From IMG/VR virus record IMGVR_UViG_3300035698_009910, positions 1 to 50,336 of that record: a DNA stretch of 50,336 nt, one strand, 5' to 3'. A program made the position numbers and the translations under genes. Positions 10,859 to 47,304 of this stretch are shown piece by piece (positions within the stretch are counted from its first letter, which is position 1; every line of letters begins with the position of its first letter). Origin of the DNA: a virus. Under the pieces are notes generated by a model that searched no databases, had not been told where the DNA came from, and saw only the letters and a list, made by a program, of their open reading frames with translations.

Positions 10859-13800
10859 ATGTCCAAATAAGAATACTACTGAATGGAGAATGTTAAAAGA
10901 AAACTTAGGTGAGCTAAATGCTTACAAAGTTTTTGTTTCTAATAATAACGAAGTTCCTGATTTAGGTACAATAAAACAAATTGTTGATAGTTATGAGAAT
11001 ATATTAAATTATAATCTTAAAATTGCTAAAAGTTTAGTAAAATTAACAAATGTGCGTAAAACAATACGTACAAATACTAAAGACAAACCTTATATTGAAA
11101 AAAATATAACTAAAACATTAATGCAAAATGGTGTGCCAGCAGATCAAATTAAATTAATGTTTGAATATATTAAAGAAAATAATATTACTGAAATTTCTAC
11201 TGAAGAATTAGCTATAGAGTTAATGTCTAAATTTGGATTTGTTATTGAAACTAATGTAACTAAAAAAAATATTATTGGTTCACAAAATGAGTATTTTGAT
11301 GAAAATGGTAATCAGATTACAGAAAAAGAAGCAAAAATATTTAAAACTGCTAATACTAATTATTATTCTAATCTTACAGTTCCAGGAGGTACTAACTATA
11401 CAGAAAATGAAATATCTACACCTGATATTACACCTAATATTAAAGGTCATGCAAAGTTTAGTACAGATAATGGTATAGGGTGGTTTAGAAGTGATGAACA
11501 AGCTAATGGGTTAACTGAAATGCCTTCAGATTTAATTAAAGAACTACAAGCTACAGGAGAATATAATGAAGCTACTGCTCAATATGCAACTAAAATACGT
11601 AGAATATTAGAACTACAATCTGATTTGTTTCAGAAACTTAGAGATAAGGTAAATGAAAACAATTTTCTACAACTACTAAACAAAAACAACAATTGGGTTA
11701 AATTCTTTATACAATCTATAGTACAAGATAGTATTAAAAAAGGTTATGAAAAAGTATTATTCCCTACAGGTGAAACTGCTGCTAAAATAGAAGGACATGA
11801 AACTATTGCTGATGAAATTATTAAATTAGATAAAAGAATATCAATAGTTAATAGTGCTTTAAATAAAATTAAAAATTCTACTATAGTAGAAAATACAAAA
11901 TATGAAGATATTGGTACAGATGCATTTGATAGTTTTAATATAGGAGAAGGAAAATTTAAGTATAATAACACTACTCCCACACTTTCAAATATAACAGGTA
12001 CTAAAGAACAACTAGAAAATAGATTAAAAAAAGAAAAATCCGAACAGGAAAAAGAAATTATTAGATTAAAAGCTAAAAAACAAGAATTAAAAACTCAAGG
12101 TTTAGAAAAACTTAAACCTGTTGAGGCTTTTTATACAAACACAGTAACTAATATTCTTAAAAAATTATATGATGTTAAGGTTATTACAGATGAACATGGT
12201 AATACTTGGAATGAAATAGATTTAACTAAAGTTAATAATAAAAATGAAATTCTATTTTCTCTTAATGATGGTAAAAAAGCTAAAGGGAAAAGTAAAAAAG
12301 TTGAAACACTAATAGAAAAACTTACTCCTTTTTTTGTTAAACATGGTATTAGTTTAAATGCTATTGATAATTTACAGAAAAAGTATGGTGTAGATGCTGT
12401 AGCAGCAGCTAACATGGTAACTAACACAATTGATTATTTAAATAATCAAAAAGGATTAGAAGCTATACCTGAGGAAATTGGTCACTTTGCTGTAGAAATA
12501 TTAGGAGTAGAACATCCATATGTTAAAAGAGCATTAGAGTTAGTTAAAGACCATCCTCGTTATCAAGAAGTTTATGATGAGTATTTTGCTATATACGATA
12601 ATGAATTAGATGTAAAAAAAGAAGTATTAGGTAAATTATTAGGTGAAAGTTTATTAGATAAAACTAATGACAAAAGTAATTTAAGTACAATGCTTAAAGC
12701 TATTTGGAATGCAATGAAAAAATTTGCAAATAAACTTGTTGGTAATAATTATCAATCAGAATTAGATTCTATTATAGATAGTATGTCAGACATGATATTT
12801 GATAATAGTATGGATGTTAATAATAATAAAACTGGTGTATTTTATAATAAAGCATCTAATTTAGGTAAAGATGTTAAGATATTAGAAAAAGCTTTGAGTG
12901 CATTATATAGTAGATTATCTAGACTTGAAAACCTTAAAGGTATAAGTTCTGAAGCTAGGGGTAAAAGTATTAAGAAAACAACATTTATTATTAAAAAAGC
13001 TATTGAAGATAATTCTATTGAATTAGGTTTAAAGTCTTTTATTACTGAGTTTAGTAAAGAAATAGGCGTATTATATAATGAAAAAAATACAGGTGCTCTT
13101 CAAAATAAACAAGTTGTTATGGATGGTACACGTACAACAAATGCTATTAACTTTATTAACAATTATGACAATTTAATTAGAAAAATGCTTGGTGTATTTG
13201 AATCACCATCATTTAATGAAAAATATATTAATGAATATAATACATTAAAAGAACTTAGTGCAACATTTGAAAAAATTAAAAGAATTATAAATGATATTGT
13301 AGAAGATAATGCAGAAGATATAATTAGAAATCAATCTAAGTCTGGTGATGTAGATGGTTTATTGGCACATATTCAACAAGATGTTAGTGGTTGGAGAGCA
13401 TTTGTAGGCTCACCAAGACATGCTGGTAATGAATTAATACGAATAGCTACAGATATTATAGACACAGCAAGAATACGTGTTAAAATGCATTCTAATCAAT
13501 ATGCTAGTCAATTAATGGAAGCACGTAAAAAGTTTAAAGAAGCTGGTCTTAAAGAGTTAGATCTTTTTGAAATGCATGATGGTAAATTAACTGGTAATAT
13601 TATATCAAAACATAACAAACATTTAGTTAACGAAAAAGTAAATGAAGTTAAAGAAGATTTAATGTTAGAATTTGGTATAGAAGATTATAATGATATTACT
13701 TATGAAACATTAGATAGAGAACAAAAAAAGATTTTTAAAAGAAAATGGAAACAATTTTTTGATGAGCATACACTTCCTAATGATGATTCAACACCTACTG

Positions 13801-15641
13801 ATAATTATTTAAATGATACATTTGCTAAGTTTGAAAAAAATGAAGCATTTTTAAATTATTATAATTTAATTATAGAACAAAGAAAAAGAGATTTTAAAAA
13901 AATTCCTAAAAGATACGACACACGTAATAATTTATATAAAGTTCCACAAATACGTAAAAACCTTATAGATGTTTATAAACGTAAAGGTGAAGGAGCAAAA
14001 GGTTTGTTTACAGATATCTTTAAAAAAGTAGAAGATGATACAGAATTTGGACAAGTTATAACAGATTCAGATGGTAATGAGATTAGACTTATTCCAGTAC
14101 ATTATTTTAATCCTGTAGAAACTAATGATTTATCTACAGATATAGCTTCTATGTCTATAGCGTTTACTGAAATGGCAGAAAATTATCGTCAAATGAGTTT
14201 AGCTTCTGGTGATGTTAATATGCTTCGTGAAACTGTTAAAACACAACAATTTCAAACAAGAGGTGGTAGACGTTCTCGTGAAGGTGCTTCTTCTAATACA
14301 CTTAAAACTATAGATAATGTATTAGATGGTATTGTTTATGGTATTAGTAGTGAAAAAATAATTATAAATGGTTATGATGTAACAAAAGCTATATCTAGTT
14401 TTAATTCTTATATACGTAAAACAAACTTAGGACTTAGTCCGTTTACAGCTTTATCTGGTTATGGTAAATCATCTATTGATTCTAAAACAGAAGATATAGA
14501 AGGTGTTTATAGTACACAAAAATCTAAATTGTTTGCAGAAGCTGAATATCTTAAAAATGCACCACAAGCATTGTTGCAAGTTAATAAAGGTTATCAAACA
14601 AATAAAATGCAATTAGCATTTGAAACATTAGATTTGTTTGGTAATGCTATTCGTAGATATAGAAATCTTAATGCTAATAGATTTGAACGTTTTGTATTAA
14701 GTGATGATTTTTGGTATTCTCCTTATATGATAGTTGACCATAGAGTAAAAGGTAAATTAGCTATATCTGTAATGGATAATTTTAGATATGTTGATGGTAA
14801 ATGGATGTTTAAATATGAATTTAAACAAGCAGGTTTACAAGGTGATTGGTCTACTTATCCTACTTATTATAATAGTATGAATGTTAACAAAAATACTATT
14901 GTACATGATAGTATTGTAACTGAAGAAACTAAAATAAAAATGTATAAAACTATATCACATTTATCAGATAAAATAGATGGTAAAATTGGTGATATGGATA
15001 GAAGTGCTGCTCATAGAAATGGATTAGCTCAAATTATATTAACCCACCGTGGTTGGTTAGTTTCAGGTATTGATGCTCGTGGTAAATCTAAAGGTATTAA
15101 TTATTCTACAGGTATAGAAGAAGAAGGTTATTATCGTACTGTTGCTAAATTAGTTCAACGAATGAGTACACACATGTACGATAAAATTAAAAAACAAGAA
15201 GTTAATTTAGATAAAATGACTTCTTTAGAAAAAAGAGCATTAGCACGTACTGTTGCTGATCTTGGTTTTTTAACTTTATTATGGGGATTATCTTCATTAT
15301 TATATGCTCATTGGGCAGATGATGATGATTACACTAAAGATTTTATAGTATATATATTACACCGTGTTCAATTAGAGCAAATTGCTTTTCTTAACCCTAC
15401 TGAAGCACTTAATCTTATTAAGAGTCCTGTAGCAGCAACTAATCAAATGAATTACTTTAGTACTGTTATAGGAAGTTTAATGCCTTGGTCAGAATCTAAA
15501 GAAGTTAGTAGAGGTGTTTATAAAGGATATAGTACTAGAGAAAGAGCGTTAATAAAACTTATACCTGGTCTTAGACAAGTTTGGGCAGTACAAGACCCAG
15601 AAGCTAAAACCAATTATTTGAGAGCATCTTTTTTCAATTAA
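10848..15641 (+). CDS. Giant virion-associated protein, 1597 aa
   Basis: The ATG sits inside the end of the RNA polymerase gene (11-base overlap), implying coupled translation. The protein is Lys/Asn-rich and mostly helical, with coiled-coil-like Lys/Glu stretches near residues 380-430. Around residue 540 it reads IPEEIGHFAVEILG, resembling a zincin helix whose first histidine is lost (EEIGH), so it may be a dead peptidase domain. Near residues 1465-1485 a hydrophobic stretch (LGFLTLLWGLSSLLYAHWA) could cross a membrane, and the tail is aromatic and basic. Position next to the polymerase matches the giant proteins thought to be ejected into the host with it in crAss-like phages. I recognise no catalytic domain with certainty. 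The gene ends just before the convergence terminator. Confidence 0.8.
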   Translation: MSVKCPNKNTTEWRMLKENLGELNAYKVFVSNNNEVPDLGTIKQIVDSYENILNYNLKIAKSLVKLTNVRKTIRTNTKDKPYIEKNITKTLMQNGVPADQIKLMFEYIKENNITEISTEELAIELMSKFGFVIETNVTKKNIIGSQNEYFDENGNQITEKEAKIFKTANTNYYSNLTVPGGTNYTENEISTPDITPNIKGHAKFSTDNGIGWFRSDEQANGLTEMPSDLIKELQATGEYNEATAQYATKIRRILELQSDLFQKLRDKVNENNFLQLLNKNNNWVKFFIQSIVQDSIKKGYEKVLFPTGETAAKIEGHETIADEIIKLDKRISIVNSALNKIKNSTIVENTKYEDIGTDAFDSFNIGEGKFKYNNTTPTLSNITGTKEQLENRLKKEKSEQEKEIIRLKAKKQELKTQGLEKLKPVEAFYTNTVTNILKKLYDVKVITDEHGNTWNEIDLTKVNNKNEILFSLNDGKKAKGKSKKVETLIEKLTPFFVKHGISLNAIDNLQKKYGVDAVAAANMVTNTIDYLNNQKGLEAIPEEIGHFAVEILGVEHPYVKRALELVKDHPRYQEVYDEYFAIYDNELDVKKEVLGKLLGESLLDKTNDKSNLSTMLKAIWNAMKKFANKLVGNNYQSELDSIIDSMSDMIFDNSMDVNNNKTGVFYNKASNLGKDVKILEKALSALYSRLSRLENLKGISSEARGKSIKKTTFIIKKAIEDNSIELGLKSFITEFSKEIGVLYNEKNTGALQNKQVVMDGTRTTNAINFINNYDNLIRKMLGVFESPSFNEKYINEYNTLKELSATFEKIKRIINDIVEDNAEDIIRNQSKSGDVDGLLAHIQQDVSGWRAFVGSPRHAGNELIRIATDIIDTARIRVKMHSNQYASQLMEARKKFKEAGLKELDLFEMHDGKLTGNIISKHNKHLVNEKVNEVKEDLMLEFGIEDYNDITYETLDREQKKIFKRKWKQFFDEHTLPNDDSTPTDNYLNDTFAKFEKNEAFLNYYNLIIEQRKRDFKKIPKRYDTRNNLYKVPQIRKNLIDVYKRKGEGAKGLFTDIFKKVEDDTEFGQVITDSDGNEIRLIPVHYFNPVETNDLSTDIASMSIAFTEMAENYRQMSLASGDVNMLRETVKTQQFQTRGGRRSREGASSNTLKTIDNVLDGIVYGISSEKIIINGYDVTKAISSFNSYIRKTNLGLSPFTALSGYGKSSIDSKTEDIEGVYSTQKSKLFAEAEYLKNAPQALLQVNKGYQTNKMQLAFETLDLFGNAIRRYRNLNANRFERFVLSDDFWYSPYMIVDHRVKGKLAISVMDNFRYVDGKWMFKYEFKQAGLQGDWSTYPTYYNSMNVNKNTIVHDSIVTEETKIKMYKTISHLSDKIDGKIGDMDRSAAHRNGLAQIILTHRGWLVSGIDARGKSKGINYSTGIEEEGYYRTVAKLVQRMSTHMYDKIKKQEVNLDKMTSLEKRALARTVADLGFLTLLWGLSSLLYAHWADDDDYTKDFIVYILHRVQLEQIAFLNPTEALNLIKSPVAATNQMNYFSTVIGSLMPWSESKEVSRGVYKGYSTRERALIKLIPGLRQVWAVQDPEAKTNYLRASFFN

Positions 15642-29870: not shown

Positions 29871-31439
29871 TTAGCTTTTGATTATTTCTCTAGTTTTAGT
29901 TGCATTATGTTCAACATTTTCACTATATTCTAATTTTTCATTAGCAATACCTATTTTTCCAGTAAATCTTTTTTTTCTTTCATCAAAATATGATGTAAGT
30001 TTTTCATTATCTACTTTAGATTTACTAAAACCAAAATTTAAAATATCATTAATAGTGATTTTTTCATTTTCTAATATTGATTTACTATTATTTTCTACAA
30101 AATAAGTAAATGCCATACAAAATAATGTCCAATTTTTAATTTTACTAAAATTCATACTAGCACTATGAGGTCTAAATTCAAGAGTTAATGGTACACCTTT
30201 ATCAGGTTTACTATTATCAATATGTGCATTTCTAGTGTTAAAATTACAAGGTATTAAATTAAACCATTTGTAACGATAAAGATGTTCTAATGCTACACCA
30301 TTACTATATCTATCTGTATATCTACCTCCTGGATGTGGTGTAAATTTATTTATTTTTTTACCAAGTTCACGTCCTTTAACATGATTAGCATTAGCCATGT
30401 CTTTGTATAACTCTTCATAAGCAATAGAAACACCATATTTTTCACCGTGTTCATCAATGTATTTTTTAAAATCCCATTTTTTAAGACCACTAGTGTAATC
30501 ATTGTTTCTTCTAGATGGTGGAAATATTTGATATATTTCTTTTTCAATTTTAAGAGCCAACATATAACTAAATATTGTAAACTTTTCATTAAAATTTGCA
30601 CCACCAATATGAACATGTATACCACATTTGTTACTAATGTTACAATAAGAATTAATAGCTTTAACAGAACGATAAAGATTAGCTAAACCAGCATCGCCTT
30701 TTAATACACCTGTTACATATTCACCACCATAAACATTATTATCTTCATCTCTTAACGATCCATCATGTACAGCATCTAAATTTAAATGAGCATTACGATA
30801 TATAAAATCTGGTATTTTTCCACTACAAGTTTCTATTTCTACACCAAAAGTATATTTCATACCACCAGTTCCTATAGTAGAACCTGTCATTACACCGTAA
30901 TTAATCGCTTCTTTTTTACTATTAAATTGATCGCTATTAGAACGAGAATTTTTAAATTTTTTATATTGTATTTTGTTTGTTGTTTTTTTAACAACATCTT
31001 TTTTTGGAACTAAAGAATTATGTTCACAAGAAATAAAAAATCCTTTTTTATTTGCTAATTCCATTGTTTCAAATAAAATATAATTAGATTCATTTTTTCC
31101 TTGTAATAGGCAATTATATTCTTTTTCACCTATTTCATCCATTATATTTTCTCTATCACCAAATTCTTTTACTGTACCGTTTTTAAAATATACTTTAATC
31201 ATGTCATCTTTATGATAATAATTATTATTAATTTTTATGCAATCTTCTTTTATAAATAAAATATATTCATAAGAATAATTTTTATTTAATTTTTTTACAA
31301 CTAAAGGGGGGTTATTTTTTCTTGAATCATAAAAAATACCGTCAATACTTATTGCTAAGTATGACGGTATTTTTCTATTTAAAGAGTCAATTACATAATC
31401 TTCTTTTTTTTTAGTTCTTATGTTTGCCCAATTTGTCAA
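29871..31439 (-). CDS. Amidoligase-family protein with extra N-terminal domain
   Basis: A 522-aa protein. From about residue 195 it shows the glutamine-synthetase-like amidoligase pattern: YTFGVEIETCSG, AVHDGSLRDEDNN, GGEYVTGV, NKCGIHVHIGG and PLTLEFRPHSASM. These Glu, His and Arg positions would bind Mg-ATP and a carboxylate, forming an amide bond. The first 190 residues are a separate strand-rich region of unknown function followed by a Ser/Asn/Lys linker. It lies between two class II amidotransferases with tiny gaps, implying a shared pathway. The substrate is unknown. Confidence 0.8.
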   Translation of the reverse strand: MTNWANIRTKKKEDYVIDSLNRKIPSYLAISIDGIFYDSRKNNPPLVVKKLNKNYSYEYILFIKEDCIKINNNYYHKDDMIKVYFKNGTVKEFGDRENIMDEIGEKEYNCLLQGKNESNYILFETMELANKKGFFISCEHNSLVPKKDVVKKTTNKIQYKKFKNSRSNSDQFNSKKEAINYGVMTGSTIGTGGMKYTFGVEIETCSGKIPDFIYRNAHLNLDAVHDGSLRDEDNNVYGGEYVTGVLKGDAGLANLYRSVKAINSYCNISNKCGIHVHIGGANFNEKFTIFSYMLALKIEKEIYQIFPPSRRNNDYTSGLKKWDFKKYIDEHGEKYGVSIAYEELYKDMANANHVKGRELGKKINKFTPHPGGRYTDRYSNGVALEHLYRYKWFNLIPCNFNTRNAHIDNSKPDKGVPLTLEFRPHSASMNFSKIKNWTLFCMAFTYFVENNSKSILENEKITINDILNFGFSKSKVDNEKLTSYFDERKKRFTGKIGIANEKLEYSENVEHNATKTREIIKS

Positions 31440-31440
31440 T

Positions 31441-32790
31441 TTATTCTTCTTTTATATCCACATTAATTAATTCTTGAAATTCTGCAATTTCTGAAGATAA
31501 TTCTACTATTTCATTTTTTATATCATGTACACCAGAGGCATTAACATAATCAGCAATATTACTTACTTTAAGACTCATTGATTTAATGATTTTACTTAAT
31601 TCTTTATATCCTAATTGAATAAAAAAGTCATCTTCATCTTCATCATCTTCTTCGTCGTCATTTAAGTAATCAAAAGGGGTTATGTCATTTTGCTCAATTT
31701 CTAACAAACCCTCGCGCTTTTTTGCAACAAAGTCCCAAAAATCTTCCCCTAAATCATTATCCATATATACTAATCTTTTTAAGACAGTACCAGATTTAAA
31801 TTTTCTAGAGTATGTAAAAACACTTAATGTTTCATTATATTCACAAACTGAACTAATATATTCATCTTTTGCATGTTTTGTTCTTACAATTAAATCTTCT
31901 TCACCTGTTGCATATTTATATAACATACCTTTTTCATTTTTCATAAAAACAGAAGAAATAGGTTTTTCTTTTGTTAAAATATGATATTTAAAATGAGATT
32001 TTGAAATATTTAAATATTCCAACATGTCTTTAGACATTTCAGCACAATTTTTATATCCACTAAGTTTAGCAACACTATTTACATTATTAATTATTTTTGG
32101 TGAATTTACAATTAAATCTTCAGAAATAATTTTACCATCAACTATTTGATAATGTTTATTTATTGTAAAAGCTTTAATATCTTTACACATAATCATATCT
32201 AATGGAAATTTTTCTGATGAAATATACATATCATCATCAACATAACCATAATGTAAAGGTCTATCATTATTTTTCCAAATATGTAATATATCTTCTTTAT
32301 CACGATTATCTCTCCAAATTAAAGCTGCTGCTCCATCAAAATCTTTAAGTACTTTAAAATCATTTAAAACATTAAAATAATGAAAGAAAAGTTTAGAATC
32401 CATTGTTACTACTTTATCATTGAAAGATAATTCTGGATTTTTTTCATTATATTCTTTTAATAAACGTTTATGATTTTTTAATGTACCATTATGAGCACCT
32501 ACTACATTATCAAACATAAATGGATGAGCATTATCTAATGTTTTTTCACCAACTGTAGCAGCTCGTGTATGACCAATAAATAATTTATCTGGTTTAGGAT
32601 TAAATCTAGGTAGCATTGTTTCACTAACCTTTCCTATTTCTTTAAATAATCTATTTTTAAATTCAAAATTTTTATTTTCAGAATAATAACCTGACGAATG
32701 TATACCTCTTGTTTCATTTGCAAAAAACAAAAGACGTATAAGGTGCACATTGTAATTGTTTTTACCTGAAAATCCTAATAATCCACACAT
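31441..32790 (-). CDS. Class II glutamine amidotransferase-like protein (449 aa)
   Basis: Starts MCGLLGFSGK, the exact N-terminal Cys-Gly-x-x-G of GlmS/PurF/AsnB-type glutaminases. GIHSSGYYS, FIGHTRAATVGEKTLDNAHPF and VVGAHNGTLKNHK complete the glutaminase domain (about residues 1-230). The C-terminal half (about 230-449) is not a recognisable sugar isomerase, phosphoribosyl transferase or synthetase; it ends in an acidic stretch (DDEEDDEDEDD) and a helical tail. It is probably the ammonia source, or an amide hydrolase, of the cluster. Confidence 0.85.
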   Translation of the reverse strand: MCGLLGFSGKNNYNVHLIRLLFFANETRGIHSSGYYSENKNFEFKNRLFKEIGKVSETMLPRFNPKPDKLFIGHTRAATVGEKTLDNAHPFMFDNVVGAHNGTLKNHKRLLKEYNEKNPELSFNDKVVTMDSKLFFHYFNVLNDFKVLKDFDGAAALIWRDNRDKEDILHIWKNNDRPLHYGYVDDDMYISSEKFPLDMIMCKDIKAFTINKHYQIVDGKIISEDLIVNSPKIINNVNSVAKLSGYKNCAEMSKDMLEYLNISKSHFKYHILTKEKPISSVFMKNEKGMLYKYATGEEDLIVRTKHAKDEYISSVCEYNETLSVFTYSRKFKSGTVLKRLVYMDNDLGEDFWDFVAKKREGLLEIEQNDITPFDYLNDDEEDDEDEDDFFIQLGYKELSKIIKSMSLKVSNIADYVNASGVHDIKNEIVELSSEIAEFQELINVDIKEE

Positions 32791-32793
32791 ATT

Positions 32794-33180
32794 TTAATTT
32801 TTTTTTGTTATTGGGTTACAATAGTCCCCATTATAAATAATTGAATTACCTTCATCATCATTAAAATAAAGTGCAGCTTTTTCTTTATTGCCGTCATCTA
32901 ATGTAATATCAATAATTTCTCTTTTATACCAAGAACCATTATGGTTATTAGGATCATATCCTTCTAACATATCAAGTCTTTTTAATTGTTGATCTGTTAC
33001 TTCATATACTTCACCAACCACTTGAGAAGTACTTTTAGATTTAGATACATAAGGAAGACCTCCTGCTGTTAAATGATATTTATTAGTTGTTTTTCCTTTA
33101 CCTATAAAGACAGTGTCTTCTAAAAGACGATTGTTACCTCGTCCTTTACGTAAAGTTCCATATACAAATACTTTAGGCAT
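32794..33180 (-). CDS. Gamma-glutamylcyclotransferase-like protein
   Basis: A 128-aa protein with the AIG2/GGCT signature VFVYGTLRKGRGNN at the N-terminus, GLPYVSKSKST, VVGEVYEVTDQQLKRLDMLEGYD (carrying the catalytic-type Glu) and WYKREII. Family members release 5-oxoproline from gamma-glutamyl amines or peptides. In this cluster it may trim or cap gamma-glutamyl linked products made by the ligases. Four bases separate it from the preceding GATase gene, and it overlaps the ATP-grasp gene by 8. Confidence 0.85.
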   Translation of the reverse strand: MPKVFVYGTLRKGRGNNRLLEDTVFIGKGKTTNKYHLTAGGLPYVSKSKSTSQVVGEVYEVTDQQLKRLDMLEGYDPNNHNGSWYKREIIDITLDDGNKEKAALYFNDDEGNSIIYNGDYCNPITKKN

Positions 33181-34030
33181 ATTCTTTAATAAGTTTTGGT
33201 AGCATATCAGCGTAAGCTTTTGCTACATAAGTTTCTAATTGATTTGTTTCTTTATCACCAAAACTTGGTGCAGAATTAATTTCTATAATTTTAAAATCTG
33301 GATTGTTTCTAACATTACCTTCTTTGTCTTTACTTGATTGTACACGTACATCACAAGCTCCAAAATCTAATCCTACTGAATGCATTGCTTTAACACATTC
33401 ATTAACAATAATATCCCAATTTTTTGGTTTATCAAAGTTTTCATTAGATTCTAAATACCAAACACAGTTAGTATCATTTTTAAACCATTTTTTATCATCT
33501 GGTGTATCTGATTTAATCATTTTTCTACATGTATAAAAACATCCATTTTTATTAACATGTATACGATATTCTCGAATACCACTGAAATATTCTTCATAAA
33601 GATAATTCTTACCTTTACCACTTTTTAAAAAAGCTTGAAGCTCATCAACAATATTAAATTTAATCATACCTCTACCTCTTGAACCATAAACAATTTTACC
33701 AATAATAGGGAATGATAGTTCCTCTAAATTTTTTGGTAATGTTGTCCACCATTTACATGTATTTATTTTAGCTTTATCAAAACAAGATTTCATCTTAATT
33801 TTATTGCTAGAATTTTTGATAGCTTCAACTTTATTTAACTCAACATGTATTTTCTTAACTCTTTTTTTATTATAAGTTTCTGTATCTGTTTCACTACCAA
33901 AACGAATAACTGTTCTAAATTTAAATAAAGGTAATGCTTTATATTTACTTCTTAATACTTTGTGAGAAGGGTGTCTACTAAGTATGAGTGGTCTAAATAA
34001 AGAAATAACTTTAACTGGTTTTCTTTTCAT
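33173..34030 (-). CDS. ATP-grasp ligase (RimK-like)
   Basis: A 285-aa protein with ATP-grasp landmarks. KSCFDKAKINTCKWW holds the first lysine region and FPIIGKIVYGSRGRGM the second lysine plus glycine-rich loop. YLYEEYFSGIREYRIHV is the adenine edge, VGLDFGACDVRV a metal-side Asp, and FKIIEINSAPSFG the ExN metal motif. ATP-grasp enzymes activate a carboxylate as acyl-phosphate and join it to an amine, as in RimK. The start may lie a little inside, since the first residues are basic. It probably adds amino acids to a peptide or protein within this cluster. Confidence 0.85.
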   Translation of the reverse strand: MKRKPVKVISLFRPLILSRHPSHKVLRSKYKALPLFKFRTVIRFGSETDTETYNKKRVKKIHVELNKVEAIKNSSNKIKMKSCFDKAKINTCKWWTTLPKNLEELSFPIIGKIVYGSRGRGMIKFNIVDELQAFLKSGKGKNYLYEEYFSGIREYRIHVNKNGCFYTCRKMIKSDTPDDKKWFKNDTNCVWYLESNENFDKPKNWDIIVNECVKAMHSVGLDFGACDVRVQSSKDKEGNVRNNPDFKIIEINSAPSFGDKETNQLETYVAKAYADMLPKLIKEYA

Positions 34031-34853
34031 GTAATCTAAAATTTTTTATATTAGATGTATAATTTTTACTACCGTCTGTTACAACAATAAGCATTGATCC
34101 AGAATTTTTAATAGTTGTTACTGTTTTATATACGTTACCATATATTAAACCTGTTCCTTTATCATACCTAATCATTTTAACATTGTCGTTTTTTTTAAAC
34201 AATTTTTTAGCTATAATAATTTCATATATTTCATCAAATGGTATTGTGTATACTGAATTATGACCTTCATCTGTAATGTATATAGAATCTTCATCATTTA
34301 TTAATTTGCCATTAAAAAATTGAAGACTTCCAGATTTGTCAATATATTTAAAAATACCATTACGTTTTTGTTCAAATAATAAAAAATTAAAATCAGAATC
34401 TATTTTTAATTTTTTAATTTTTACTTTATTATTATATAATTCTGTATTTATAAGACCAACTGGTACTGTTTCTGGTATATTATCATTAAAGTATTTTCCA
34501 TTACGATACCATTGATTATGAAAATGATAAATATTACTATTTCTATCTATATGTGCATATCTAATATCAATAGCATTTAAAGATGGAAAATATACTTCAT
34601 TATAATTAATATATTCATGTGAATTAATAAATAATATATTTTGTTTCACATCAATTTTTTCTATAGTAATAATATCTCCAGCACTTAAATTTCTATGAAG
34701 TGCTTCTTTTATACTTCTTACTTTAATAGCTTTATGTAATCTTAATGTTTCACCATTTTTATACTGATCTAATGTTTTTATGCCTTTTAATTTTAAAAAA
34801 GATAAAAATAAATCATTTCTTGTTTTATTATTAGTCTCGTTGTACTTTAACAT
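34011..34853 (-). CDS. Hypothetical protein in the amidoligase cluster
   Basis: I place the start at the ATG at 34853, which gives a 23-base overlap with the upstream ligase gene. An earlier ATG at 34967 would overlap it by more than 130 bases. The protein is about 280 aa and strand-rich. The C-terminal part (NDNVKMIRYDKGTGLIYGNVYKT, IVVTDGSKNYTSNIKNFRL) resembles a small SH3-like barrel. The middle has a HIDRNSNIYHFHNQWYRNG segment. I do not recognise a family; its place between two ligases suggests a carrier, scaffold or substrate. Confidence 0.6.
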   Translation of the reverse strand: MLKYNETNNKTRNDLFLSFLKLKGIKTLDQYKNGETLRLHKAIKVRSIKEALHRNLSAGDIITIEKIDVKQNILFINSHEYINYNEVYFPSLNAIDIRYAHIDRNSNIYHFHNQWYRNGKYFNDNIPETVPVGLINTELYNNKVKIKKLKIDSDFNFLLFEQKRNGIFKYIDKSGSLQFFNGKLINDEDSIYITDEGHNSVYTIPFDEIYEIIIAKKLFKKNDNVKMIRYDKGTGLIYGNVYKTVTTIKNSGSMLIVVTDGSKNYTSNIKNFRLHEKKTS

Positions 34854-35640
34854 ATTGTTGAATATATTTAATGTTGTGTTCTTTAGAAATATCCATTGCC
34901 ATTTTTTTATTATTTGTATCAATAGCAGTACGAATCGAATCTGAGAATTCTTTAATTTTATTTTCATTATTTACAAAATCTATCGCAAGCATTGTTTGAT
35001 TAAAAGCCCATTCCATTAATTCTTCAGATTTAAGCCAAAAATTACTTAATGTTCTGTATTCTAAACCATAATCTGTAATTCTAAATCTACCAGATTTTCC
35101 ATAAACATTTTTACGATCTTCATCTTCATCCATAATTACAGCAGGTACACCTAAAAACAAATCCATTGCTTTAACTATACATTCTGTAATTTCAACTGTT
35201 GGATTATCATAACTAATATGAATATGTCCACCAGCATAACGAGTATTTTTTTCTGGTTTAATTTCAGGATATTCACATTCTAACCAAACATTAAAATCAA
35301 CAGAACATCCAAATTCTTTAGCTTGATCTGTACTTAATTGCTCATCTGTAAATTTAATAGAAGGAACAATTGCAATATCATAATTAACTCTATTTTTAAT
35401 AGTAGCTAAACAATAAGCAATTTCTCTTTTTAATCTACCAACATCTCTTACTGGTGGAATATTAAATTCTACCATTACATTATCTTCTTGTAATGAATGT
35501 CCTTCTTCACTAATTGGAATAGGTTCTTCTTTAGTTCCACCAATTAAACCTTCTGATGATACAGCTTTACCTTCTTTATCTATTAAAAATACCTCAGGGT
35601 CTGCACCAAATGCATTAAATTCTACTATTTTTTTAGACAT
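34831..35640 (-). CDS. Phage-type COOH-NH2 ligase (amidoligase superfamily)
   Basis: A 269-aa protein with FGADPEVFLIDKEGK near the N-terminus, VMVEFNIPP, RYAGGHIHISYD and DYGLEYRTLSNFWL. This is the signature of the phiEco32-like COOH-NH2 ligase type 2 branch of the amidoligase superfamily. The Glu of GADPE, the HIH pair and the ExR are the expected metal- and ATP-binding positions. It would form an amide between a carboxyl and an amine using ATP. It is of a different subfamily from the ligase at 29871, so the cluster has two distinct amidoligases. Confidence 0.85.
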   Translation of the reverse strand: MSKKIVEFNAFGADPEVFLIDKEGKAVSSEGLIGGTKEEPIPISEEGHSLQEDNVMVEFNIPPVRDVGRLKREIAYCLATIKNRVNYDIAIVPSIKFTDEQLSTDQAKEFGCSVDFNVWLECEYPEIKPEKNTRYAGGHIHISYDNPTVEITECIVKAMDLFLGVPAVIMDEDEDRKNVYGKSGRFRITDYGLEYRTLSNFWLKSEELMEWAFNQTMLAIDFVNNENKIKEFSDSIRTAIDTNNKKMAMDISKEHNIKYIQQYVKVQRD

Positions 35641-35674
35641 ATTATTTTATATTTGATTTTTTAATAAAAAATTA

Positions 35675-36379
35675 TTAGGCAACAACATTATATTTAGTTT
35701 TCATTAATGTGATTTTGATAATATCTATAAGTTTATTTCTTGTAACATCACTACATGTTGCATATTCAGGATGTCCTTGAATAGCTAAACAATTAGTTTT
35801 TTTGTAATAAACAATTTCTGGTTCTCTAATTACATTATTTTTATCAGCATATGCTATTAAACCAGATTTAACATCAGCAAGATCTGTCATATATTTAATA
35901 GACAAAGGTTTTTCAGCCCATGCGTGTAAAACATAATCAACATCTTCAATTAAATCGAAAAATGGATTCATCATTTGATGATGTGTACTTGTCATATCAA
36001 AAACAGAATCATCATTAAATTTAATATTATGATTCCCACCATGACCAGTAACATCTTGAATAAGTCTACCACCATTCATTACAGTTAAAAATTGAGAACC
36101 TCTACAAATACCCATCATTGGTATTTTATTTTCTCTTGCAAATAAATATGCATCAATATCTACTTTATCAGCATTATTGTCTGGCATATTAGTTGCTGGA
36201 ATTTTTTCTTCACCATAAAGACTTGGGTTTACATCTACACCGCCTTTAAATATAACTAAATCAACTTTATTATCTAATTCTTTTGATATTGTAAAATCTT
36301 TAGCCATCCATCTAATTAATGAACCTGCTTCATGTGTGTATGCTCTTGGGCAATATACATTTATTTTTTTATCCAACAT
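35675..36379 (-). CDS. Class I glutamine amidotransferase / gamma-glutamyl hydrolase-like (peptidase C26 type)
   Basis: A 234-aa protein with FKGGVDVNPSLYGE, MMGICRGSQFLTVMNGG (nucleophilic Cys), STHHQMM and IQGHPEY (catalytic His and Glu). This triad and the VDVNPSLYGE loop are typical of PuuD-like gamma-glutamyl-gamma-aminobutyrate hydrolases and related class I amidotransferases. In phiEco32-like phages a comparable gene accompanies the COOH-NH2 ligase. It probably hydrolyses gamma-glutamyl or other amide bonds. First gene of the cluster; overlaps the upstream unknown gene by 19 bases. Confidence 0.85.
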   Translation of the reverse strand: MLDKKINVYCPRAYTHEAGSLIRWMAKDFTISKELDNKVDLVIFKGGVDVNPSLYGEEKIPATNMPDNNADKVDIDAYLFARENKIPMMGICRGSQFLTVMNGGRLIQDVTGHGGNHNIKFNDDSVFDMTSTHHQMMNPFFDLIEDVDYVLHAWAEKPLSIKYMTDLADVKSGLIAYADKNNVIREPEIVYYKKTNCLAIQGHPEYATCSDVTRNKLIDIIKITLMKTKYNVVA

Positions 36380-39156: not shown

Positions 39157-40210
39157 GTAGTCTGGACTATCTCATCAACCTTCATCTTCATCAGAATGTT
39201 TTGGAGTTCCCCATTTCATTCCTATTGTGTGACTAGGTTGCTCGTTAAAGTTAAAACCTACCTTGTATTTCATTGAATTTATCATATATGGTTCTAAAAT
39301 TAAAACTAATTTTTTAGTTTCTTTTACATTAAAAGTAAGAAAATAAGATTGTTTCCTATTTTTTCTTTTTGTAACTCTTAATGTTGGAGAAATATTCCAA
39401 ACTTGTTTAAAATACTTAATTATTATATCGTGTTCTTTTTTATTAAAAGAATTTGTATGTAATGACATATAAGCACTTTTACCACGTTTAGTATATGATC
39501 CATCATCCATAAACCATATTGCTAATGACTCTTTGTTTAAATAATTTAACCATTTTCTTTTAACAGCTTTATTATTTTTAGGATATAATACTAATCTAAG
39601 TTGATTAAATAAATTAGGGTCTTTACAATCTATTGTAAAACTTTCACCATAATTATTTGTAGTATCATATAATCTTGATACATTAAATCCTAATTCAATA
39701 AGTCTTTTTTGTTTATGTATAATGTAATCAGTTTGTTTTTTAGAATGTCTAGTACTTAATAAACTATTGGCTTTTTTTAGCCTAGTTTTAGAAATATAAC
39801 TATCTCCTAATACCATTCCTATGATAAAACTTATTTGATTTTTATCATATTTTCCCATATATTTTTTACTCATATTTTTATTCTTTATAATGCTCTACAA
39901 AGATAAACAAAATATTTGTAATATCCAAATCTCACATTCAGTTTTTTTTAGTCTCTACACCGTTTTGTAAAATCATTTTAATTTCATATAATGCATTTAA
40001 AGCAGTTTGATTACCTTTTTCATAATTATTTGAAATTTCTTTAATTTTATCAATTGACGGCACGGGATTGTCTTTTTCAATTTTTTGTTGTTTCATTTTT
40101 ATTAAATTAAGAGTTTCCCCGTCAGCATATATACTATTATTTTTCACGTATATATACCCCTTACGGATTCCGAGTTATTCAATGTATGTTACCATACAAG
40201 GGGGCAGTAT
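39157..40210 (-). ncRNA. Group I intron catalytic core (P, Q, R, S elements)
   Basis: In the minus direction the order is: a structured P2-like region (about 40150-40208, with a TGTATG-GTAA-CATACA hairpin and CCCCTT/AAGGGG stem), element P GACGGGGAAACTC (40111-40123), element Q AATCCCGTGCCGTC (40056-40069), element R GTGTAGAGACTAAA (39947-39960), the endonuclease gene, and element S GAGATAGTCCAGACTAC (39157-39173). R GACTA pairs with S TAGTC (P7), and P ACGGG pairs with Q CCCGT (P4). The endonuclease therefore sits in the P8 loop, a usual place. Confidence 0.8.
39175..39873 (-). CDS. LAGLIDADG homing endonuclease
   Basis: A 232-aa protein with two LAGLIDADG-type helices, FIIGMVLGDSYISK near residue 17 and LAIWFMDDGSYTK near residue 112, each ending in an acidic catalytic residue. 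It is a single-chain, two-repeat enzyme of the LAGLIDADG_2 kind. It would cut intronless polymerase genes and drive intron spread. It is encoded between the R and S elements of the group I core, and its TGA stop touches the S element. Confidence 0.9.
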   Translation of the reverse strand: MSKKYMGKYDKNQISFIIGMVLGDSYISKTRLKKANSLLSTRHSKKQTDYIIHKQKRLIELGFNVSRLYDTTNNYGESFTIDCKDPNLFNQLRLVLYPKNNKAVKRKWLNYLNKESLAIWFMDDGSYTKRGKSAYMSLHTNSFNKKEHDIIIKYFKQVWNISPTLRVTKRKNRKQSYFLTFNVKETKKLVLILEPYMINSMKYKVGFNFNEQPSHTIGMKWGTPKHSDEDEG

Positions 40211-41649: not shown

Positions 41650-42402
41650 TTATTTTTTTAATTTTATACGTTTAGTAATAAGTCTTTTTTTATTAGGATC
41701 AACAATGTGAGATGCTTTTACAAAATAATTTTCATTTAAAACTTTTTTAAATAAAATACTTTTTTTATCATTTAAATAATATACTAATTTATTATTATTA
41801 TCAACTTCTTCACTTGTTTTAGGATGAATAGGTGTAATAAACATATGTATATTAGGAGAAAATGATCTTTTATCATCTGTTTGTTTTAAACTTATATAAG
41901 ATTCATAACCATTACCAATACTTCTACGTTTATCTTTAAATTCTTTTTCTGTTATATTAAAAAATAATATTCTTCTTTTTTTATTAGTAGATTCTTCAAA
42001 ATCAGATTCTAAAAATCCACCACCAAAAGTATATTTTCTATATACTTTTTTATACATTATTAAAAATGTACAATATAATAAAGACCAAGTTTTTTTATTT
42101 TCTTTTAATTCATAAATTTTATCTACAGTTGGGGTATCATCCCAAATATCTCTAAAAAATCTAAAAAAAGAAATATAAAAACCTTTACTTTTGAAATCAA
42201 TTTTAGTTATATTATTGTTAACAATATTAACTTTTCCTTCAAATAATTCTTCAGTTATTTTTATTAAATTTGAAGTTAATGTTGTTGGGATAGTAATAAA
42301 AAATATTTTTGTTTCACTTTTTACATATTTTCTCATAAAATTATCACCACAATTAGTTTTAATTAAATCAAATTCATTATTTACATCATTTTTTATAATC
42401 AT
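41650..42402 (-). CDS. Intron-borne hypothetical protein with CGDNFMRK motif, 250 aa
   Basis: The ATG overlaps the TGA that closes the 5' polymerase exon frame (ATGA), so it could be translated by coupling from unspliced RNA. NCGDNFMRKYV near residue 17 is shared with the gene at 36959-37552, including a 24-base identical run (42330-42353). The rest is basic with SKGFYISFFRFFRDIWDD and HMFITPIHPKTSEEV. No family recognised. Confidence 0.6.
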   Translation of the reverse strand: MIIKNDVNNEFDLIKTNCGDNFMRKYVKSETKIFFITIPTTLTSNLIKITEELFEGKVNIVNNNITKIDFKSKGFYISFFRFFRDIWDDTPTVDKIYELKENKKTWSLLYCTFLIMYKKVYRKYTFGGGFLESDFEESTNKKRRILFFNITEKEFKDKRRSIGNGYESYISLKQTDDKRSFSPNIHMFITPIHPKTSEEVDNNNKLVYYLNDKKSILFKKVLNENYFVKASHIVDPNKKRLITKRIKLKK

Positions 42403-43415
42403 ATTATATTAAGTTTACCCGTTCCAAAGTCGTATTTAAAACCTTTGTAAATTACACTATCTTTAATAGCATTTTTTGTTTCAGAAATAATTGTATTTTT
42501 TAGTTTATTTAATAGAGTAGTAAACTCTACATTTTTATATTTAACATAAGGAAGAATACAATTAGCAAAATTAATATTATCTCTACGTGTTCTTAATTTC
42601 TTAAGATCATATAAATTCATATTTAATTCTTTTGCCATTGATGAAGCAAATATATCTTCTCCCATACCAGCATCTGGCTTATTAATAACATTTATATTAT
42701 ATACTTTACCTATATTTTTACGTAAATCAATTATTTTTTTTGATTTTAAATAAAATTCATAAGTTGAGTCTACATCATTTTTGTTATATAATAGGATATC
42801 TTCTATTTGTTCTTCTTTAATAAAAGTTGTATAATGTAATGGGAGATCTTGAACCTTTTTCCATTTCATTGCTACTTGTAATTTTTTTAAAGATGTTATT
42901 CTTGCTTTGTTATTAAAATGCCAAATTCTAAATAAGTCAACTTGCTTTATTAGAACATATTTGTTTCTAATAGCTGGAAATAATTCACTTATTATTCTTT
43001 GTGATTCTTTGTACAGTTCCTCAACTGAACAATTTTTGTTTGTTAATAAAAAATGTAATAATGGATAATCATAATTAATATTATTAAATCCTATTAAAAC
43101 ATTACATGATTCTAAAAATTTGATATATTCTTTTACATCATTTCTAGCTTTATGTATAACAAACGTTTTATATTCACCTGTATGTATGTTATAAAACATA
43201 CCAGAGTGAAAATTAGGGAATTGTTCTAAATCATATACCCATATACTTTTAAAATTCTGCTTCTTCTCCAAAATCAACAGGTGCTTCTTGTTCTTCAGGA
43301 AATGCTCCTCCGACTTCAAAGATGTTTTCTCTTTCAAAAAGTCTATGTTTTTTTGCATCTTTTTCTCTTGATGCATTTGTATATATGTTATAGATTGATT
43401 CAAACACACACCCAT
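42399..43415 (-). CDS. DNA polymerase B, 5' exon (3'-5' exonuclease domain)
   Basis: Family-B proofreading motifs are present: VYDLEQFPNFHSG (Exo I, D and E), IGFNNINYDYPLL (Exo II) and YNKNDVDSTY (Exo III). The true exon probably ends at 42417 (FKYDFGTG); the last codons KLNII and TGA belong to the intron. The start is unclear. The 5' part of the frame to 43415 overlaps another gene, and its residues before IWVYDLE look like out-of-frame translation. A TTG at 43271 or the ATG at 43358 are alternatives. No polymerase motif A, B or C is here; they are in 37592-38566. Confidence 0.85.
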   Translation of the reverse strand: MGVCLNQSITYIQMHQEKKMQKNIDFLKEKTSLKSEEHFLKNKKHLLILEKKQNFKSIWVYDLEQFPNFHSGMFYNIHTGEYKTFVIHKARNDVKEYIKFLESCNVLIGFNNINYDYPLLHFLLTNKNCSVEELYKESQRIISELFPAIRNKYVLIKQVDLFRIWHFNNKARITSLKKLQVAMKWKKVQDLPLHYTTFIKEEQIEDILLYNKNDVDSTYEFYLKSKKIIDLRKNIGKVYNINVINKPDAGMGEDIFASSMAKELNMNLYDLKKLRTRRDNINFANCILPYVKYKNVEFTTLLNKLKNTIISETKNAIKDSVIYKGFKYDFGTGKLNII

Positions 43416-44721: not shown

Positions 44722-46287
44722 TCATGTTATTTTGTTTATATTATTTCTGATTTTATTTAATGAAATATTATTGTAAAAGTTACCATTTTCAAAGATAGTT
44801 TGTAAATATCCAGTATCTTCTAATTCCCAAGATTGTTGGTCAAATAATACTAATTTATTATTATTTTCTGGGTCATGTCCTACAGATAACAAACCTTTAG
44901 CTGATTTTTTAGTGCCATCATCAGTAATAGGGTCTTTAAAGATTTCTCTACCTACTGTTTTTAAATGTAACTCTGAAGAATCCTCAGCTGTTTCATCACA
45001 CTCTAACAATTCTATATAAGTAGCTTTCATTGCAAATCCAAAAGTATCTCTAGTGTTAAATTGATAAGTAAAACTACCAATACCTAACACTACATTAGTA
45101 GATGCAAAACCTTTAGCTTTTAATCTTTCAATTATCTGCACAGCTCTTTCATCATTAATAGAATCACCATAGATTGCTCCAATGTGAGGGTCTAATACTT
45201 TGTAACCTTGTGAGTTAATAGTACCACCAAATGTATCCCAAAGAAGTTCTATTACTCCTTTTTCTTCATTTGACCAATTACTTTTATGTTTACCTGCAAT
45301 ACCTGTTCTATAAGCATTTAAAACGTTTCCACAAATAATATCTACAGGGTCTCCACTATCAGGTCTAATTACTAATTTACCAGGTCTTGCAAGAATTTCT
45401 TCTTTTAATGCTGGTAATGTTTGAATAAGAACTTTCCATAAATCCCATGTATCAGATACAATAGACAATACTGGTGCATCTTTATAGATGTTTAGTAGAT
45501 TTCTAAAAGTACCAATTTCATCATCTTTAGTACCAGCACACATAACACTATGTTCTGTAGCAGGTACACCACTAATAACGTTTCTTACGGCATCATAATA
45601 TTTTCTAGCTCCATGTATAACAGGTAAACTGTCAGAGCCTAAGAATGATGTTGCATGACCTAATCCACTACTAATTGTAGCATCAACAGAGTCCATACCT
45701 CTCATAGAAAAGTCATGACCTTGATAATCTACAAACCACACATTATTTTTATCAGTTTCTAAAGCTCCTTTAGTAAGAATCTTTTTGAAATTGTGAGCTA
45801 ATGTAGCTGATGTCATAGGTTTCCATAATAGATTAGAAATCAATGTTTCTAAGAAATTAGTTAACCAAAAGAACTCAGGCATTGTATTTACTATAGTAAG
45901 TACAGGTACTCCCATTGGTACAGATGTACCTTCTGATAATGCTTTTACTTTAATAGGTAAATAACCTAAATCCCATAATGCTTCAATATGACTTACATTA
46001 TAATCAGAACCAAGATATAAAGAATATTCTTCTTTAATTTCTTGACATACTTTAATCTTAACTCCTGGAGTTATATTTCTTAAATCTGTAATAAAAAAAT
46101 ATTTATCAAACATTTCTTTAATTTGTCTCATTACCATTTGTTGTCCAAATGATATTACATTTTCTACATTTTTAGGTGCATATTTATTACTTCTTGGAGT
46201 AAAGTTACTGTATACTAAAGTTGTTCCTTTAGGATATTGCTTGTGATGGTCTACTTTATAGCCATCTGTTGCTAAGAATGGGTTCAT
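44722..46287 (-). CDS. Nicotinamide phosphoribosyltransferase-like enzyme (NAMPT/NadV family)
   Basis: A 521-aa protein of the NAMPT family. Signatures are DGYKVDHHKQYPKGTT with YSNFTPRS at the N-terminus, FVDYQGHDFSMRGMDS, SGLGHATSFLGSDS and GTKDDEIGTFRNLL. The C-terminal half has LVIRPDSGDPVDI, YGDSINDERA and GIGSFTYQFNTRDTFGFAMK. NAMPT joins nicotinamide to PRPP to give NMN. In phages a related enzyme (Namat) instead joins nicotinamide to ADP-ribose pyrophosphate, giving NAD directly; sequence reading alone does not separate the two. It lies one base from the PRPP-synthetase-like gene, so both act together. Confidence 0.9.
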   Translation of the reverse strand: MNPFLATDGYKVDHHKQYPKGTTLVYSNFTPRSNKYAPKNVENVISFGQQMVMRQIKEMFDKYFFITDLRNITPGVKIKVCQEIKEEYSLYLGSDYNVSHIEALWDLGYLPIKVKALSEGTSVPMGVPVLTIVNTMPEFFWLTNFLETLISNLLWKPMTSATLAHNFKKILTKGALETDKNNVWFVDYQGHDFSMRGMDSVDATISSGLGHATSFLGSDSLPVIHGARKYYDAVRNVISGVPATEHSVMCAGTKDDEIGTFRNLLNIYKDAPVLSIVSDTWDLWKVLIQTLPALKEEILARPGKLVIRPDSGDPVDIICGNVLNAYRTGIAGKHKSNWSNEEKGVIELLWDTFGGTINSQGYKVLDPHIGAIYGDSINDERAVQIIERLKAKGFASTNVVLGIGSFTYQFNTRDTFGFAMKATYIELLECDETAEDSSELHLKTVGREIFKDPITDDGTKKSAKGLLSVGHDPENNNKLVLFDQQSWELEDTGYLQTIFENGNFYNNISLNKIRNNINKIT

Positions 46288-46288
46288 A

Positions 46289-47131
46289 TTAAAATTGTTT
46301 AATTATTTCTAAATTTCCAGGTTGATCTCCTATACTAATATCATCATACATGTGATAATATTCATCAAATTTACTGTTAGTAGTAAATACTTTATCAAAG
46401 TAATTAGTTACTGGATCTACACCTAAATTTTGCACAGTCATATGACTAACAGCTAAGTATAATTTACCACAGTTACGTTCTTTGAGTAATTTAGCTAAAC
46501 CTTTAAAAGTACCACCATAAACAGATATATCATCTACAATAAGAATGTCTTTACCTAAAAAATCTTTTTTACCAATTTTTTGAATTATATTAGATTTTTT
46601 ACCGTAATAACTTCTACTTTTACTACACGAATGAACTTCTCCTTGCCAATCTAATTGATCGCATAATTTCATTAAAGGTTTAAAACCACCTGCATCTGAA
46701 GACATTAAGATAGTATTTTTAGAATTTAATCTAGGCATTTTATTTACATAATCATAATGTCCTAATTTATATAATACTTTTGCTATAAACTCACTATTAT
46801 TAATAATTTCTACATTATCCATTAAAGCTTCTACAACTTCTGCATTATGAGGATGAAATATTTTAAAATTAGCATTCATTCCATTTAGAAACTTACATAC
46901 TAATTTTAAACCACTTGATTGGTCATCAGCAAATCTTCTGTCAGCTTGTGCATCAATAAGATTAGGTATAATAATTAAAGGTTTTAAATTATATTTATTA
47001 TTGTAAGCATCTACAAATTGATTCAAATGCCATAAATCTTCATAAGAATTTAATTTCCAAGTAATAATTTCTTCACCTGAATGTTCTGTAGTAACATAAC
47101 TACTTCCATCTGGATATTTATTTATTTTCAT
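46289..47131 (-). CDS. Ribose-phosphate pyrophosphokinase-like enzyme (Prs/Adps family)
   Basis: I place the start at the ATG at 47131, because a longer frame to 47176 would run into the tRNA. About 280 aa. ADRRFADDQSSGLKLVCKFL corresponds to the Prs catalytic flap region, HPHNAEVVE to a metal-binding loop, and DILIVDDISVYGGTFKGLA to the PRPP-binding motif. Prs makes PRPP from ribose-5-phosphate and ATP; phage relatives called Adps pyrophosphorylate ADP-ribose. It is encoded immediately upstream of the NAMPT-like gene, forming a two-step NAD-making unit. Confidence 0.88.
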   Translation of the reverse strand: MKINKYPDGSSYVTTEHSGEEIITWKLNSYEDLWHLNQFVDAYNNKYNLKPLIIIPNLIDAQADRRFADDQSSGLKLVCKFLNGMNANFKIFHPHNAEVVEALMDNVEIINNSEFIAKVLYKLGHYDYVNKMPRLNSKNTILMSSDAGGFKPLMKLCDQLDWQGEVHSCSKSRSYYGKKSNIIQKIGKKDFLGKDILIVDDISVYGGTFKGLAKLLKERNCGKLYLAVSHMTVQNLGVDPVTNYFDKVFTTNSKFDEYYHMYDDISIGDQPGNLEIIKQF

Positions 47132-47145
47132 TTTTATAATTTTAG

Positions 47146-47304
47146 CAGGACATAAAGGATTCGAACCTCCGACCATACATTATAACAGTGCTTTTTATAT
47201 TATCTTTCCACGTATAACTTATTAGCACAACATTATCTTCCATAAGTTGATAATGTATTGTTTTATTACATAATGTATTGCTCTAACCACTGAGCTAACG
47301 TCCT
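47146..47304 (-). tRNA. tRNA-Ile(UAU) split by an 87-base insertion in the anticodon loop
   Basis: The 5' half has acceptor AGGACGT (47298-47304) and a D-arm GCTC-AGTGGTTA-GAGC. The 3' half has a T-arm GGAGG-TTCGAAT-CCTTT and acceptor ATGTCCT. The anticodon stem ATACA (47274-47278) pairs with TGTAT (47175-47179) only if 47186-47272 is removed. The joined seven-base loop TTTATAA gives anticodon UAU. The insertion starts after U and ends in G, as in group I introns, but at 87 bases it is too short for one. It has no encoded CCA, and G follows the acceptor. Confidence 0.6.

Follow-up and report, generated by a model that had tools for sequence, protein, structure and literature searches.

A Prs-like and NAMPT-like gene pair in a crAss-like phage fragment

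Two adjacent minus-strand genes, coding for a Prs-like and a NAMPT-like protein, form the locus studied here; we name them adps and namat after the enzyme types assigned below (Table 1). A single base separates the adps stop codon from the namat start (TAA-T-ATG), and a preliminary description of a two-gene module with its members one base apart is thus borne out. The longest adps ORF begins at position 47176 and first crosses the 3' end of a tRNA-Ile gene. Because codons from that start would cross the tRNA, and because the Adps proteins of relatives start at a Met equivalent to the ATG at 47131, the latter is the likely start. The tRNA gene ends just upstream of this ATG and was found by ARAGORN with introns allowed (no match in 20 shuffles). 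At 87 nt, its insertion falls short of the size of a typical group I intron, and Rfam detected no known intron in it.

Table 1. Features of the adps-namat locus
Feature	Coordinates	Strand	Details
adps, Prs-like, Adps-type (ADP-ribose pyrophosphokinase) gene	46289..47131	-	280 aa; first gene of the pair
namat, NAMPT-like, Namat-type (nicotinamide ADP-ribose transferase) gene	44722..46287	-	521 aa; second gene of the pair
Namat selectivity-clamp helix motif GSFTYQFNTRD	45046..45078	-	residues 404-414; motif definition from PMC12774641
Namat selectivity-clamp loop S33-N34-K35-Y36	46180..46191	-	by alignment; rule from PMC12774641
Adps-type 5'-phosphate loop D200-D-I-S-V-Y-G-G-T-F209	46505..46534	-	by loop alignment
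tRNA-Ile(UAU) gene with 87-nt anticodon-loop insertion	47145..47304	-	neighbour, outside the pathway

The pair lies in an IMG/VR virus record of 50,336 bases, the window, which its gene matches identify as a fragment of a crAss-like phage: an ORF at 10848-15641 resembles the 'putative RNA-polymerase subunit' annotated in crAss001 and further crAss-like phages, with E values as low as 2e-43, and the pair itself matches crAss-like phages. Among annotated records, crAss-like phage cr111_1 is one of the closest to carry the NAMPT-like gene (49%), and matches to the Prs-like gene extend to Kolpuevirus 'frurule'. A near-identity DNA search brought up no phage record that was close; its sole match was 64 bases long, in Leptolyngbya phage Lbo-JY46. 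In that phage, amidotransferase and ATP-grasp genes lie directly downstream of a Prs-like gene; the window carries, at 29871-36379 on the minus strand, an amidoligase, a class-II glutamine amidotransferase, an ATP-grasp/ribosomal-S6-type ligase, a COOH-NH2 ligase and a second glutamine amidotransferase. Elsewhere, the DNA polymerase ORF (42399-43415, minus strand) matches only the N-terminal exonuclease half of its family (phrog_1252, 14-332 of 663) and a LAGLIDADG endonuclease is present at 39175-39873, so the polymerase gene may be split or interrupted. It had also been suggested that a macro-like domain on the RNA polymerase could be functionally related to the pair. That suggestion finds no support, as no macro domain was found in the giant ORF at 2-10858, scanned against Pfam at E values up to 10, or in a PF01661 search of the whole contig. 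A sub-threshold macro match (16.1 bits, cut-off 22; E 6.7e-4) occurs at 30563-30937 (L204) of relative G008, the record of pair-carrying locus L100.

General libraries placed both proteins far above chance. The NAMPT-like protein matched phrog_448 (E 1e-172) and NCBIfam NF006629 (499 bits, cut-off 405), and the Prs-like protein matched phrog_619 (E 1.3e-33) and, above cut-off, Pfam Pribosyltran. However, the Prs-like protein did not pass the Prs model TIGR01251, scoring 58.4 bits against a cut-off of 113, whereas true Prs from seven Bacteroidota genomes scored 346-363. In a PADLOC scan, it gave only weak phosphoribosyltransferase-fold look-alikes. The generic library names, nicotinamide/nicotinate phosphoribosyltransferase and ribose-phosphate pyrophosphokinase, leave two pathways unseparated: ordinary NAD salvage, and NAD+ reconstitution pathway 1 (NARP1), reportedly first described by Osterman et al. 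in Nature in 2024.

Substrate signatures of the two enzymes

Namat, which uses ADP-ribose pyrophosphate (ADPR-PP), is distinguished from the PRPP-dependent NAMPT and NadV by a clamp helix, GS-X-phi-X-phi-X-phi-TRD, with aromatic residues at positions 3 and 7, and by a clamp loop that stacks through an Arg or, if Lys or Tyr occupies its third position, through the residue after that one (PMC12774641). The helix of the window protein fits this consensus, and residue mapping aligns its two aromatics, F406 and F410, with the adenine-contacting F392 and Y396 of SPbetaL1 Namat. The same two positions are Q and R in H. ducreyi NadV (GAQTYQRNTRD) and A and K in mouse NAMPT (GGALLQKLTRD). In the aligned clamp loop the third residue is Lys, and by the rule Tyr36 is expected to be the adenine-stacking residue. 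The aligned adenine clamp consists of F406, F410, T412 and D414 together with K35-Y36. Position 7 is Phe rather than Tyr, and the hydrogen bond of that Tyr to adenine is absent.

The catalytic core is likewise retained. All NMN-contacting residues of SPbetaL1 Namat are kept in the window Namat (D8, Y10, F193, S194, R196, D219, A243, R308, D310, G374, D375, G404, S405, R413 and D414), the phospho-acceptor His is kept as H246, and R308, D219 and F193 are the equivalents of Arg306, Asp215 and Phe189. The best PDB sequence match was SPbetaL1 Namat itself (9W5X/9W5W, 458 bits), whereas H. ducreyi NadV (9KE8) scored 386 bits and mammalian NAMPT no more than 218 bits; the pNAD1-borne H. ducreyi NadV is identical in sequence to 9KE8, which bears the PDB title HdNadV. 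An AlphaFold model of the window Namat (pLDDT 87) gave the same ranking, its top structural matches being Namat chains, then HdNadV and mammalian NAMPT. In a Namat/NAMPT tree, the window protein belongs to a supported group of viral proteins that has a chromosomal lineage of Bacteroidota as its sister, and it groups with Namat homologues apart from mouse NAMPT and the NadV proteins of BcepSaruman, K491 and C. metallidurans (support 100). However, the neighbour of SPbetaL1 Namat in this tree is HdNadV, which uses PRPP, and tree position is therefore insufficient to fix the substrate; the case is decided by the clamp residues.

For Adps, we found no published rule separating the enzyme from Prs, and the basis of its selectivity has been called obscure (PMC12774641). 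Our alignment set the window protein against 37 genuine Prs, from E. coli and from Bacteroidota, and some 130 Prs-like genes located near Namat genes. All 37 Prs carry the 5'-phosphate loop DD..DT[AG]GT[LI], with its Thr and with Leu or Ile after the last Thr. The Adps-like proteins near Namat (131 scanned) are without the loop Thr and have Phe after the last Thr. The window loop, DDISVYGGTF, is of this Adps type and does not match the Prs signature; the loop of the validated SPbetaL1 Adps is DDLSSFGGTF, and the aligned loops of wV8 (DDICDGGRTF) and L033 (DDLSIGGGTF) are consistent with the other Adps-like proteins. Such a difference would make sense if the 5'-phosphate belongs to the diphosphate of ADP-ribose.

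Phylogenetic analysis gave the same picture. Prs stood alone on one side of a branch with 100/100 support, with the window protein on the Adps side, and forcing the window protein together with Prs cost 59.9 log-likelihood units and was rejected (p-AU 8e-6). The comparison with known Adps/Namat and Prs/NadV that had been proposed as a check thus takes Adps off the Prs branch and groups Namat with Namat homologues. The AlphaFold model of the window Adps (pLDDT 90.9) has a PRPP-synthetase-like fold (E 1e-14), and the protein is without the C-terminal Prs tail.

Seven residues of the window Adps, D64, H95, D146, K171, R173, D200 and D201, are invariant. The ATP site departs from the norm across the subfamily to which the protein belongs: it reads DAQADRR where Prs has ARQDRR, with Arg and Gln lost and the Arg of RQ.D replaced by Gln, whereas the validated SPbetaL1 Adps keeps the Arg (SRMDRS). 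The window protein has YPDGS in place of the F.DGE of Prs, a change of Glu to Ser (Ser or Thr across the subfamily), and the subfamily has HPHN where others have D[PL]H[SA]. These residue patterns suggest that the ATP site of the subfamily could be different or impaired, which is the main uncertainty of our assignment. Changes of all three kinds are common to relatives of the window Adps, and comparison with the proteins of L100, L101, L102 and L022 gave dN of 0.24-0.28 and dS of about 0.63-0.78, indicative of purifying selection. The window adps is not a decaying copy.

Relatives in phages and in Bacteroidota chromosomes

Pairing of adps with namat is conserved in related phages, and both genes evolve under purifying selection. 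Of the 83 viral loci retrieved around a Namat-like gene, 64 also contain an Adps-like gene, and only 5/83 have both flanks longer than 5.5 kb and no Adps-like gene. Of 50,697 phage records, 1,916 gave NAMPT-like matches, so the module in itself is a common one. Searches for an NMNAT (CTP_transf_like, PF01467), which were positive in 14/14 control genomes, found none in the window contig, in three crAss-like relatives from IMG/VR or in cr111_1 and frurule, whose records are complete. This absence fits direct NAD+ synthesis, bearing in mind that the window is a genome fragment and that the host has an NMNAT of its own.

We also considered the best 80 bacterial genome loci (L109-L188), all Bacteroidota by their record titles. 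The Namat clamp motif is present in every one of them, and in 59 an Adps-like gene lies no more than about 6 kb away, a pairing mostly of the Adps type and not with Prs. The preliminary description had taken clear clustering with host-derived salvage enzymes, together with no activity on ADP-ribose, as grounds for excluding the defence version. The nearest bacterial relatives of the window pair are indeed chromosomal Bacteroidota genes, but this clustering does not exclude NARP1, because the host enzymes are themselves NARP1-type. Two chromosomal lineages can be told apart: one has the clamp loop RSNKYAP and Adps downstream and is the sister of the viral clade in the Namat/NAMPT tree, and the other has the loop RKSRI and Adps upstream.

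NrtR is a repressor of NAD genes that responds to ADP-ribose. In 51 of these 80 loci, an NrtR-like gene combining Nudix and winged-helix parts was found nearby. Since a putative ADP-ribose sensor adjoins the bacterial homologues, this linkage lends support to ADP-ribose being the substrate and to a metabolic role in bacteria. It also suggests that recycling of ADP-ribose to NAD+ may be an ordinary bacterial pathway and the source from which phages drew. Bacterial NARP1 has previously been described as limited and of unknown role (PMC12774641).

A nucleoside 2-deoxyribosyltransferase-like gene was a frequent neighbour of Namat, at 51 viral loci (for example L024:9375-9851, L040:9457-9936 and L074:5235-5726) and 23 bacterial loci (for example L110:5560-5991, PF15891); none was found in the window. 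By analogy with RyDEP elsewhere, its product could supply the pathway by acting on compounds that resemble ADP-ribose. PF02026, sought as a RyDEP-like RyR partner, gave no match, nor did it in the controls.

A putative NAD+ reconstitution module, its alternatives and its known counterparts

Taken together, the clamp, the Adps loop, the trees and the absence of NMNAT favour the first of the two options, Adps/Namat or Prs/NadV, that the preliminary description had left side by side. We put the probability that the pair is a NARP1 module, with substrate and product as predicted from residue signatures, at roughly 85%. Adps would transfer pyrophosphate from ATP onto ADP-ribose, yielding ADP-ribose pyrophosphate, and Namat would join the latter with nicotinamide to form NAD+ directly. 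The defence NADases of the TIR, SIR2 and SEFIR types leave ADP-ribose and nicotinamide, which would be the inputs of the pair. The NARP1 pairs of SPbetaL1 and P. foliorum protect against NAD-depleting defences (PMC12774641), and Adps and Namat of DyoEdafos make NAD+ in vitro (PMC13232231). By analogy with these tested homologues, a counter-defence role is likely: the crAss-like phage would restore NAD+ while infecting a host, which we infer to be of Bacteroidota type, that shuts down by NAD depletion.

Ordinary salvage, in which a true PRPP synthetase and a PRPP-dependent NadV/NAMPT would make NMN for conversion to NAD+ by the host NMNAT (NadV-Prs, NARP2-like), is what the generic annotation of both proteins implies. 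It draws some support from the position of the PRPP enzyme H. ducreyi NadV within the broader Namat-containing clade, and from the in vitro ability of Namat enzymes to use PRPP too, with some of that activity kept (PMC12774641). Against it stand the clamp aromatics of the window Namat, the missing Prs loop Thr, a TIGR01251 score of about half the cut-off, the rejected grouping of the window Adps with Prs and the relatives without NMNAT; we regard it as very improbable. Slightly better odds, still poor ones, go to the idea that the activity of the Adps subfamily has been lost or changed (another pyrophosphate donor or acceptor), with the pair acting on another ADP-ribose-like compound. The replacement of Arg by Gln and of Glu by Ser or Thr at the ATP site, and HPHN for D[PL]H[SA], all of them subfamily-wide, point that way, whereas the seven invariant residues and the Adps loop are kept, the sequences are under purifying selection and the subfamily is still paired with a clamp-bearing Namat. 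One form of this idea, to which we give an equally small chance, is a subfamily with a shifted substrate, be it a different pyrophosphate donor or an ADP-ribose-derived defence product such as an opened cyclic ADP-ribose isomer. If true, the crAss-like module would represent a mechanistically distinct branch of NAD+ reconstitution.

The more serious alternative concerns the role of the pair. A host-derived ADP-ribose recycling route may keep NAD+ high during replication, with no specific anti-NADase role, and would take in ADP-ribose released by the phage's own or by host enzymes. Chromosomal Bacteroidota homologues are widespread and often NrtR-linked, which suggests housekeeping control of NAD, and no further counter-defence gene was recognised next to the pair. 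However, the NARP1 pairs tested to date counter NAD-depleting defences (PMC12774641) and the DyoEdafos enzymes yield NAD+ in vitro (PMC13232231), and we consider a purely metabolic acquisition unlikely, if clearly less so than the preceding alternatives. The metabolic and counter-defence roles are not mutually exclusive.

The NARP1 assignment would place NAD+ reconstitution in crAss-like phages, a dominant phage group of Bacteroidota, where such genes have so far been annotated only as nucleotide-salvage enzymes or hypothetical proteins. In cr111_1 and frurule, for instance, the pair is annotated only as putative nicotinate phosphoribosyltransferase and ribose-phosphate pyrophosphokinase, or as hypothetical. 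It also offers a simple sequence rule for telling Adps from Prs, namely that the 5'-phosphate loop of Adps lacks the Prs Thr and that Phe follows its last Thr, which complements the published Namat clamp rule and could serve to re-annotate many 'ribose-phosphate pyrophosphokinase' genes.

Most likely, then, the system is of a kind already known: a recently described phage counter-defence pathway, here with a divergent copy of Adps. It shares with NARP1 of Bacillus phage SPbetaL1 (OQ921341; 9W5W/9W5X) the adps-namat order, the Namat core and clamp helix signature, the Adps-type 5'-phosphate loop and the NAMPT and PRPP-synthetase folds. It differs in that the window Adps is only about 27% and the Namat 52% identical, Adps has other residues in place of the ATP-site Arg and Glu, the clamp loop takes the Lys-Tyr form (as in Bas63) and not that with Arg, and the carrier is a crAss-like phage. 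The Crassvirales phages cr111_1 (MT774387) and 'frurule' (OQ198718) also carry the pair, with the clamp helix present, but belong to other Adps and Namat lineages (about 23-28% and 51-52% identical, respectively), and in cr111_1 Adps lies downstream of Namat. The IMG/VR contigs of L100, L101 and L102 (99-103 kb) and L022 (96 kb) have Namat and the same Adps subfamily (65-68% identical); those of L102 and L022 also have RNA-polymerase-subunit matches to the window. Unlike in the window, HNH- or LAGLIDADG-like endonuclease ORFs or other small ORFs lie between their two genes; by eye, HNH homing endonuclease look-alikes occupy L101:3579-4130 and L102:6892-7422. H. ducreyi NadV (pNAD1; 9KE8) and mouse NAMPT (2GVL) have the nicotinamide phosphoribosyltransferase fold and catalytic core in common with the window Namat, but are PRPP users with non-aromatic clamp positions 3 and 7. 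Finally, the NARP1-like genes on Bacteroidota chromosomes (among them those of Maribacter, Polaribacter and Tenacibaculum) share the Namat clamp signature and the Adps-type loop, and differ in being NrtR-linked, in some cases in lying beside a nucleoside deoxyribosyltransferase-like gene and, in the RSNKYAP lineage, in having Adps downstream.
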